Of a DNA stretch of 34,952 bases, positions 7,829 to 23,881 are shown in pieces. Position 1 is the first letter of the stretch; every line of letters begins with the position of its first letter. Where the stretch lies: the NCBI GenBank assembly GCA_012840075.1, contig DUMC01000083.1, forward strand, positions 1 to 34,952, read 5' to 3'. The translations under genes and the position numbers were made by a program. The notes beneath the pieces were generated by a model, which had not been told where the DNA came from, made no database searches, and saw only the letters and a program-made list of their open reading frames with translations. Origin of the DNA: Clostridiaceae bacterium. GTDB lineage: Bacteria > Bacillota > Clostridia > Acetivibrionales > DUMC01.

Positions 7829-8152
7829 AAAAAAACTTCCACCCCTCAAAACTGTTAAGGGACGAAAGTTCCATTTCGCGGTACCACCCTAATTGATACA
7901 AAAGTGTATCCACTCATTTAGCAGCAATTTAACTGCCCATTCAGCAGCATTTTACTGCTTTCCTCTGTAACGTGAGGAACACGGCTTATCCTACCTCAGG
8001 GATTTATAATAAGTCAATTCTCCCTCTTTTTCAGAAAGCAACTCCCGGGCTGCGTTCTATAACATGTTTTACCGGTATTCCACCAACCACCGGCTCTCTA
8101 TGAAAACATAATTATATACTCTTCCCGTTCATTGTCTTTCGGCATGTGATTT
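7829..8152 (-). promoter_or_regulatory. T-box leader, probably alanine-specific, with intrinsic terminator
   Basis: The minus strand carries a complete T-box. The conserved box AGGGTGGTACCGCG is at 7890-7877. The bulge UGGU (7886-7883) would pair with a tRNA end ACCA, as in tRNA-Ala. The terminator is a 14-pair stem between 7870-7857 and 7847-7834, with wobble pairs, followed by seven U (7835-7829). Stem I is recognisable: GAAAG at 8140 pairs with CTTTC at 8038, GGGAAGAGTA is at 8126-8117, and the distal part contains AGAGAGCCGG at 8099. The specifier loop reads GAA-C-GCA-G. By position relative to known T-boxes, the codon is GCA (alanine) at 8053-8051. Uncharged tRNA-Ala would stabilise the antiterminator and allow reading into the Lrp and aminotransferase genes. 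A 207-base AT-rich stretch with no other gene lies between terminator and start codon. Confidence 0.92.
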
Positions 8153-19229: not shown

Positions 19230-19258
19230 TTGTAACTTCAGGATAAAGGTGGTATAAT
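19230..19258 (+). promoter_or_regulatory. Sigma-A-type promoter of the zinc-ribbon gene
   Basis: TTGTAA (19230-19235) and a perfect TATAAT (19253-19258) are 17 bases apart, with a TG one base before the -10. Transcription would start near 19265, giving a leader of about 107 bases before the coding region. Confidence 0.75.
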
Positions 19259-19264
19259 CAAAAA

Positions 19265-19371
19265 AAAATACAAAAATAAGTGATTTAATTAACCTAAAAC
19301 CCTCTTACTCCTTAACAATTTGGAGGAAAGAGTAAAGTTAATTAAATCCAAGTTGTTAAGGAGGTATGTTT
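19265..19371 (+). promoter_or_regulatory. Leader with two mutually exclusive stems, one hiding the ribosome site
   Basis: Stem A pairs 19282-19293 (GATTTAATTAAC) with 19337-19348, twelve perfect pairs, and continues with TTACTC (19305-19310) against GAGTAA (19330-19335). Stem B pairs 19308-19323 (CTCCTTAACAATTTGG) with 19348-19363 (CCAAGTTGTTAAGGAG), 16 pairs with one G-U. Stem B buries most of the AAGGAGG ribosome site (19358-19364). The two stems interlock, so they cannot form together except as a pseudoknot. This is the layout of a translational switch. No run of U follows stem B, so it is not a normal terminator. The trigger (temperature, ligand, protein or a moving ribosome) is unknown, and I did not recognise a known riboswitch class. 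Confidence 0.7.
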
Positions 19372-19563
19372 GTGCCGGACAAAATTATAATTTGTAAAGA
19401 TTGTGGTAAAGAGTTCGTTTTCACAGAAGGTGAGCAGAATTTTTACAAGGAAATGGGATTTGAAAATGATCCTCAAAGGTGCCCCGAGTGCAGAAAAGCT
19501 AGAAAACAACAGAAAAGAAACAGTAAATTTGGTTCTCGCAGATTTGGTGGCGATAGGATCTAA
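19372..19563 (+). CDS. Small zinc-ribbon protein
   Basis: This basic 63-residue protein has two CxxC pairs spaced like a zinc ribbon: ICKDCGKEF near residues 7-10 and RCPECRKARKQQ near 37-40. Between them lies FTEGEQNFYKEMGF, typical of the probable zinc-ribbon family (zf-trcl) common in Clostridia. The tail is rich in Arg, Lys and Gly (NSKFGSRRFGGDRI), which suggests nucleic-acid binding. The function of the family is not established. The GTG at 19372 is chosen because AAGGAGG ends seven bases before it; the ATG at 19366 is only one base from that site. It has its own promoter, a structured leader and a hairpin after it, so it is a single-gene unit with translational control likely. Confidence 0.85.
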   Translation: MPDKIIICKDCGKEFVFTEGEQNFYKEMGFENDPQRCPECRKARKQQKRNSKFGSRRFGGDRI

Positions 19564-22627: not shown

Positions 22628-23881
22628 TCAGACCAACCTCTCCAACCCCCTTGCCCCCCAAATACAAGGTTCAGTACATGTCCAATCTGGAAATCTGCAG
22701 CGAGGTACTGCAACATAATTATTATTAGCATCTTTTTTTACGTACTGAATAAGAAAATTTTTAATTTCACAATACTCGTCATAAACTGTAGGATTATCTA
22801 AAGAGCTTGCATCACAAAAAGACTCATTAGCTTTACTATAAGACTCAAGAGCTTGAATATATTCAATCAAAGTTTTTGCAGTCTGCAAGGCTATCTCAAG
22901 TTGAGCGCTACCGCATAGCCTTTCTTTTGCCTTTAAAATGAAATTCTCGTAAGTACCCCTTTCGTTTATTTCAATTAACATTCCCTGAGGAAAGACTTCG
23001 GATACCGATCTAATATCCTTCAGCCATTCATTCTCAAGTTCATTGTTGCCACCATTATTTCCCGCTCTTATGATTGGCGGTATATAGAATTTCAAATCAT
23101 CTTGTGGAATGCGTATTCTGTAATCTAAAGTTCTGTGTCTTTGTGCTTGGGCAAGCTGAGCAAAGCTACCCAAATAATTTACCGAATAATTCTCTCCAAA
23201 TTCATTCCGTCGGCTCTTCCTAGTATCAAACAGCGCAAGTTTTCTGTTCTTTATGTTACTATTTAAATACGGAACATCAAACTCCCTGCATTCCTCTATG
23301 AAATTCTTCATGCAATCCTTAAGCTTTTTATTGAAATCGGTCTCCGGTTCTTCTTCAATAAACCTTTTCATTAAACTGATTATAATGCTTATCTGCCTTA
23401 AACTTACGGTATATGCCATGGTAGTAGGGGTAAATACGCTTATCATATATCTTGCATTTTCCTGAGCAAGTTTCTCAGCTTGTTTTTCCTTTATATGCGG
23501 ATAAACTTCACGTATTTTATTCTTCAAAATCTCTATCCATTTATTATATAAGAGTTCTTCCCGTCCATCTGGATTCATTTTTGTATATCTTGCCGACTTC
23601 TCCGATGTAGTGTAAAATCCTTCATTATTCAACACCATGGCAAGAATCTTTGGAATATCTTCAAATAGAAAATTATACGTTGGGTGGTCGTAGACGCTAT
23701 GATGCCCTGCTTTTAAAGTTCTCTGGACCCTTTTTTTTGTTTTTTCTTTATCCTCGTTTAATATAGCATCAAAATTATCCGGCATATAGCATATTCCCGC
23801 AGCTTTGCCTCCAAATTCCAATGCTTCTTCTATTGGCAACTTATATCCTTCCTTTGTAGAACCTATTATCCTTATTTTCAT
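22628..23881 (-). CDS. Double-length ThyX-like protein
   Basis: This 417-residue protein is related to flavin-dependent thymidylate synthases, which make dTMP from dUMP with FAD and methylene-tetrahydrofolate. Normal ThyX has about 220-250 residues and a joined motif, RHR followed seven residues later by the S of SxRY. Here the N-terminal half has the family's HHSVYDHPTYNFLFEDIPK and ends in TTSEKSARY, but NEG stands where RHR is expected. The C-terminal half has AQAQRHRTLDYRIR with RHR but no following SxRY. This looks like a fused duplication in which each half kept part of the site. Cysteines cluster at the end (CRFPDWTCTEPC). Whether it makes dTMP is unclear. GGGAGG lies five bases before the ATG. 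It is last in a run after rsmF-like and rsuA-like genes. Confidence 0.65.
   Translation of the reverse strand: MKIRIIGSTKEGYKLPIEEALEFGGKAAGICYMPDNFDAILNEDKEKTKKRVQRTLKAGHHSVYDHPTYNFLFEDIPKILAMVLNNEGFYTTSEKSARYTKMNPDGREELLYNKWIEILKNKIREVYPHIKEKQAEKLAQENARYMISVFTPTTMAYTVSLRQISIIISLMKRFIEEEPETDFNKKLKDCMKNFIEECREFDVPYLNSNIKNRKLALFDTRKSRRNEFGENYSVNYLGSFAQLAQAQRHRTLDYRIRIPQDDLKFYIPPIIRAGNNGGNNELENEWLKDIRSVSEVFPQGMLIEINERGTYENFILKAKERLCGSAQLEIALQTAKTLIEYIQALESYSKANESFCDASSLDNPTVYDEYCEIKNFLIQYVKKDANNNYVAVPRCRFPDWTCTEPCIWGARGLERLV

Follow-up and report, generated by a model that had tools for sequence, protein, structure and literature searches.

A gene-specific leader with two competing predicted folds precedes zf_Tbcl zinc-ribbon genes in Clostridia

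Results

The window, i.e. the whole stretch of 34,952 nucleotides that was analysed, carries on its plus strand at 19372..19563 a gene of the zf_Tbcl family (PF13451) encoding a protein of 63 residues when read from GTG 19372, or of 65 residues from ATG 19366, the longer reading scoring 87.4 bits with the family profile (cut-off 24; E 6e-25). This small protein ends in a basic tail, and the tails of its relatives are often rich in Gly, Arg, and Asn. Among solved structures, sequence matches were found only to zinc-finger chains such as that of ZNF568 (E 3e-9), which we take as a resemblance of spacing. A Shine-Dalgarno sequence (SD), AAGGAGG, lies at 19358..19364 (plus strand), 7 nt before GTG 19372 and 1 nt before ATG 19366; this spacing and the N-termini of relatives make GTG 19372 appear the better placed start codon (protein VPDK..), which corrects the start of the preliminary description. 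Indeed, with starts chosen by their SD, 108 of 110 loci have an N-terminus of the form M-x-D-K/R and the other 2 one of the form M-D-K/R; the SD-to-start spacing is 6–10 nt at the 96 loci with GGAGG.

Upstream of the gene, a consensus scan predicts a promoter, TTGTAA - 17 - TATAAT with an extended −10 (19230..19258, plus strand, 10/12 matches), although this is weak evidence on its own, the scan having returned four promoter-like sites over 700 bases where 2.9 are expected. From this predicted promoter, transcription would start near 19265, so that the whole leader, at about 19265–19371 on the plus strand, would be part of the transcript. An inverted repeat is seen by eye 3' of the stop codon at about 19577, absent from the list of the terminator scan, and the gene may therefore be monocistronic. 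Elsewhere in the window, on the minus strand, lie a T-box leader (7855–8141; 137.7 bits) and a ThyX-like gene (22628–23881; Pfam Thy1, E 6.5e-17), whose product of 417 residues is longer than the 191-position family model.

Folding of the leader yields two alternative structures. In fold A, found when the SD is blocked from pairing, a closing helix P1 and an inner helix P2 leave the SD free. P1 pairs GATTTAATTAAC (19282..19293) with GTTAATTAAATC (19337..19348) over 12 pairs, and P2 pairs CTCTT a CTCC (19302..19311) with GGAG ga AAGAG (19322..19332) over 9 pairs, the GGAG of its 3' arm imitating the SD. In fold B, a 17-pair stem with one G-U pair buries the SD, its anti-SD arm (19308..19324) overlapping both arms of P2 and its SD arm occupying 19347..19363; both arms are supported by the swap test described below (all coordinates on the plus strand). 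The unconstrained minimum is fold B, at −25.5 kcal/mol, and the SD-blocked folding, with P1 and P2, reaches −20.6 kcal/mol. P1 and stem B overlap at 19347–19348 only; in the folding model, the competition is mainly that of P2 with stem B for the anti-SD strand 19308–19324, more than that of P1 with B. The preliminary description had drawn this pair of competing helices correctly in its outline and in its 12-pair P1, while placing the competition elsewhere; its SD-hiding stem is present with 17 rather than 16 pairs, and its 6-pair inner helix (19305–19310 with 19330–19335) can be drawn, although SD-blocked folding prefers the 9-pair P2.

These structures stand out from chance to different degrees. 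A 136-base stretch folds with a z of −3.5, none of 200 shuffles being equally stable. Against 1000 dinucleotide-preserving shuffles in which the SD was kept, the cost of SD burial is in itself ordinary (325 reach the value of the window), the SD-free fold is unusual (6 equal it), and the two features occur jointly in a single shuffle. Among the leaders of 49 control genes, one has an opening cost as high and none has both features. All these results are computational, and pseudoknots, proteins, and ribosomes lie outside the energy model.

A zf_Tbcl gene is found in 53 of the 60 related genomes, and 80 further loci were taken from named genomes, the best among 419 candidates. By eye, the same plan with different letters is seen in many of the 110 leaders, but not in some, such as L030, L036, L039, L045, and L102. 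In the order of the window, this plan, also by eye, is GATTTAAT...CTCCTT...TTTGGA...GTTAAATCC...AAGGAGG. A Clostridium subgroup has GATTAACAACATTCC...GGAA...AATGTGAATC as its middle part, an SD stem that extends to the start codon, and a P1 that is mostly unchanged (GATTTAA with TTTAAATC); the GATTTAA core of P1 occurs in 41 of 64 aligned leaders. RNAalifold on sequence alignments recovered only a short consensus SD stem for this leader, and the folds were therefore assessed with arm swaps and pair counts.

The swap test asks whether the two arms of one leader give a better duplex energy together than when combined with arms from other leaders. L020, which is the same record as L057, was left out of the set of 35 leaders; the shuffle, start-spacing, and folding-order comparisons omit 14 of the 110 loci, in which the last 24 nt before the start have no GGAGG or the upstream sequence is too short. 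An alignment of 92 rows was reduced to 64 by removal of 25 rows without an SD-like end and of 3 antisense images or second hits; these 64 rows come from 64 different loci out of 66, all on the correct strand. Over the 64 leaders, own arms pair better in both folds, with z of −15.7 for B and −9.7 for A. The permutations do not model descent, and the result survived thinning to 28 leaders less than 70% alike (B −11.6, A −6.9). When the CTCC and GGAGG ends are taken off, stem B still reaches −7.8, and A stripped of every base of B −3.6. Between the P1 core and P2, fold A has weak support (−2.9; own arms better than the median in 18 of 28). The set of 35 leaders gave −11.4 for B, −6.9 for A, and −2.3 for the inner P2 alone, and the Clostridium subgroup (25 leaders) −5.4 and −2.7 for B and A.

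Pair counts agree in part with the swap test. In an alignment of 23 leaders, 89.7% of the cells of P1 and B are paired, against 85.6% in shuffled and at most 56.4% in slid alignments, and 27 cells are double-changed where 10 are expected. In the same 23 leaders, two other counts do not clearly exceed those of shuffles: 40 of 500 shuffles have as many doubly changed pairs, and 38 of 500 as many further pair types. The helices of the two states exclude each other and are each kept by compensatory change, weakly so for the inner part of A. The covariation check that the preliminary description had proposed for orthologous leaders therefore speaks, through the swap z and the double-changed cells, for both folds of the bistable leader it had placed before a zinc-binding gene.

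A covariance model of fold A, R1, built from 23 leaders, was used to follow the distribution of the leader. In 60 genomes, at E up to 1, R1 matches 88 places, 76 of them directly before zf_Tbcl genes, the others being 9 antisense images and 3 strays away from zf_Tbcl (E 0.16, 0.24, and 0.88). The antisense images (9/88) arise because the plan of the leader is nearly self-complementary, as can be seen on the minus strand of the window at 19282–19348. The distance from the leader to the protein match is 1–14 nt in 75 of the 76 cases and 124 nt in one, L154, in which the leader has an insertion before the SD. In L154 (G030:C279), this insertion follows the leader match at 1767–1854 and separates it from the SD; it is palindromic, spans about 90 nt, ends in GCGGCAATT / AATTGCCGC, and looks like a small mobile repeat.

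Broader samples give the same association. In the class sample (291 genomes, E up to 0.1), 34 genomes have an R1 match and 163 a zf_Tbcl gene; the 45 matches comprise 2 antisense images and 43 sense matches, all 43 of which precede zf_Tbcl. The phylum sample (299 genomes, E up to 0.01) gives three matches, two of them at zf_Tbcl: the window itself, one zf_Tbcl leader outside the class, and a 47-base match (E 0.0099) with no zf_Tbcl open reading frame listed. Searches of more than 40 genomes used stricter filters, with which weak matches are lost. Judging from these matches, the strict R1 form appears to occur mainly in the order of the window and in some other Clostridia. The leader is thus linked to one gene family, as is required of an autogenous leader.

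With the 4227 models of Rfam 15, the window gave two matches, a T-box and a tRNA, both away from the leader, and 17 related loci searched at E up to 1 gave six, none at a leader; at the sensitivity of Rfam, the earlier statement that no known RNA class has these sequences is borne out for the window and these 17 loci. A search of the open-licence literature returned no paper on the zf_Tbcl family or its leader, one match treating nematode regulators. The word zinc is absent from the accessible extract of a study on leaders induced by cold in an acetogen (PMC6239172).

R1 leaves 45 of the 121 zf_Tbcl places without a match, and 20 of these were read: three have an R1-like leader below threshold (by eye), 11 a second conserved leader, and the remainder consists of five two-domain proteins with neither leader and one single-domain gene with none recognised. 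The second leader, unrelated to the first, reads by eye TGCTA..CTATAAA..CTTATTA..CCGTGATGTATAAG..TTTATAG..TAGCA and is found at L172, L175, L177–L184, and L186 (e.g., L182:320–417, minus strand), where the paralogs have a ..TFTFTVGEQ.. segment and the leader stretch CCGTRATGTNTAAG is strongly conserved. It has no Rfam match near the gathering score, and RNAalifold gave no consensus structure for it. A sequence-only model of nine members, R2, finds 47 places in the 60 genomes at E up to 0.1, 16 of them below E 1e-9; these 16 strong matches all lie directly before zf_Tbcl genes, seven being at loci that are not members of the model, and it is to them that this specificity applies, the other 31 having E of 0.0019 to 0.1.

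At L161–L168, L176, L185, and L187–L189, the zf_Tbcl paralogs are two-domain proteins that contain a second CxxC domain. In the L166 protein, the one scanned, this domain is a CxxC-x17-CxxC (NCBIfam TIGR04272). A fused cold-shock domain was considered and rejected for these proteins, none being present in those looked at (8 + 5), which have the second CxxC domain instead.

The order of folding during transcription was predicted for 35 leaders, grouped after their sequences had been seen, and for the 60 remaining zf_Tbcl leaders with a GGAGG core. In 34 of the 35, the early transcript, ending before the 3' arm of B, forms a long-range helix, and in 34 of the 35 the complete leader favours the closed state by more than 1.5 kcal/mol. 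The joint pattern of a long-range early helix, an SD buried at the end, and the loss of most early pairs is present in 26 of the 35 and 40 of the 60 leaders; the same criterion picks out 93 of 1050 shuffles and none of 53 other nearby genes. The A-to-B barrier given by findpath has a median of 19.7 kcal/mol and is below 10 in 6 of 35 leaders; with such predicted barriers, unaided refolding from A to B would be very slow in most leaders, and a model involving this change therefore needs a helper.

The predicted cost of opening the SD in the window stays within 5.8–6.7 kcal/mol from 5 to 65 °C. Its mean over the 35 leaders decreases from 6.6 kcal/mol at 15 °C to 4.8 kcal/mol at 45 °C, the SD being closed at either temperature, and opening is easier in the cold in 3 of 35. 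An RNA thermometer acting at equilibrium, one of the options of the preliminary description, is not supported by this near-flat cost in the window and by the small number of leaders that move toward opening in the cold. Barriers in the window of 7.2 at 15 °C and 24.3 at 25 °C derive from different A folds and are not comparable.

Discussion

Taken as a whole, the reading that we favour, with about an even chance of being right, is that of a gene-specific two-state translational switch that is open when nascent, closed at rest, and probably autogenous. Its parts do not have the same strength. As far as the folding models reach, the leader very probably acts as a switch, and this switch would presumably work in cells with state A as the productive state. 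During transcription, P1 and P2 would be the first helices to form, with the ribosome site accessible; as soon as the SD region is transcribed, the anti-SD strand could exchange P2 for pairing with the SD, and the greater stability of state B would keep the resting mRNA closed. That the zf_Tbcl protein is the signal, holding B or speeding the change from A to B, is put forward tentatively, at somewhat less than even chances. Autogenous control is suggested by the presence of the leader at one gene family, by a second unrelated leader on paralogs, and by the basic tails of the proteins. Gene specificity alone is no proof of autoregulation, and the confident matches of the leader model at zf_Tbcl genes keep the earlier proposal of autoregulation a reasonable idea. 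The GATTTAA core of P1 could be a candidate protein-binding site. A more specific version, unlikely in our estimate, is that the zf_Tbcl protein anneals RNA and shuts its own mRNA by speeding the refolding of a leader born open.

Known systems offer partial parallels. In the accessible extracts on rpsO, which encodes ribosomal protein S15, different bacteria use unrelated RNA structures for this one protein, and a leader with two alternative conformations precedes one gene (PMC8470358, PMC5100602). The zf_Tbcl paralogs likewise have two unrelated leaders, which points to autogenous control. The zf_Tbcl case differs from rpsO in that the protein is a zinc ribbon of unknown function, that the SD lies in a long plain stem, and that binding of the protein to the leader is putative.

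Among the other explanations, the one that fares best, although we hold it to be rather unlikely, is that P1 and stem B coexist as a long-looped pseudoknot serving as an operator, only P2 being exclusive with B. It is consistent with the overlap of P1 and B, which amounts to two bases in the window and to none, by eye, in the Clostridium subgroup, and with the good pair counts that P1 and B give together in the 23-leader alignment; the energy model used here excludes pseudoknots.

Doubtful to a greater degree is a kinetic cold thermosensor of the cspA type, in which the open fold made in the cold persists through slow refolding. The metastable open fold that forms first and the high predicted barrier fit such a sensor, and so does the comparison with E. 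coli cspA mRNA, by analogy the nearest temperature-linked one, which in the accessible extract has two leader folds and whose product is also small and probably RNA-binding (PMC9947658). However, the predicted balance of the zf_Tbcl leader does not shift open in the cold: the opening cost is nearly flat in the window and, over the 35 leaders, falls on warming, with 3 of 35 rising. Furthermore, no match of the cspA family was found in Rfam, and no match of the leader model lies beside a csp gene, the three strays having no recognised csp after them.

In translational riboswitches that sequester the SD, a strand is shared between an upstream helix and the helix that buries the SD. The zf_Tbcl leader shares a strand in the same manner, and its closed P1-P2 domain beside an SD-burying platform resembles a riboswitch layout, with a P1 core common to many members (41/64). 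A riboswitch in which a small molecule or an ion such as zinc would stabilise P1-P2 and open the SD is nevertheless improbable in our view: by eye, unpaired positions are poorly conserved between subgroups and no aptamer-like core is conserved across them, no riboswitch of Rfam matches, and confident model matches lie at one gene family only. Finally, it is very improbable that the inverted repeats act as DNA operator sites or for some other reason have nothing to do with RNA folding. The P1 arms do form an inverted repeat close to the predicted transcription start, whereas the SD stem shows compensatory pairing (z −11.6 after thinning, and −7.8 when its CTCC and GGAGG ends are omitted) and the folding-order pattern is in excess.

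The gene-specific switch, as we read it, is a compact natural one in which the order of folding opposes the final stability and both folds are visible in evolution. The leader is of a class common to many Clostridia and outside Rfam 15 at the sensitivity tested, and it gives a first handle on the function of the zf_Tbcl protein. If zf_Tbcl does act as such an RNA annealing protein, a folding-order clock and a protein feedback would be joined in about 85 nucleotides, and the zf_Tbcl family would have come to control two leaders of unrelated evolutionary origin.
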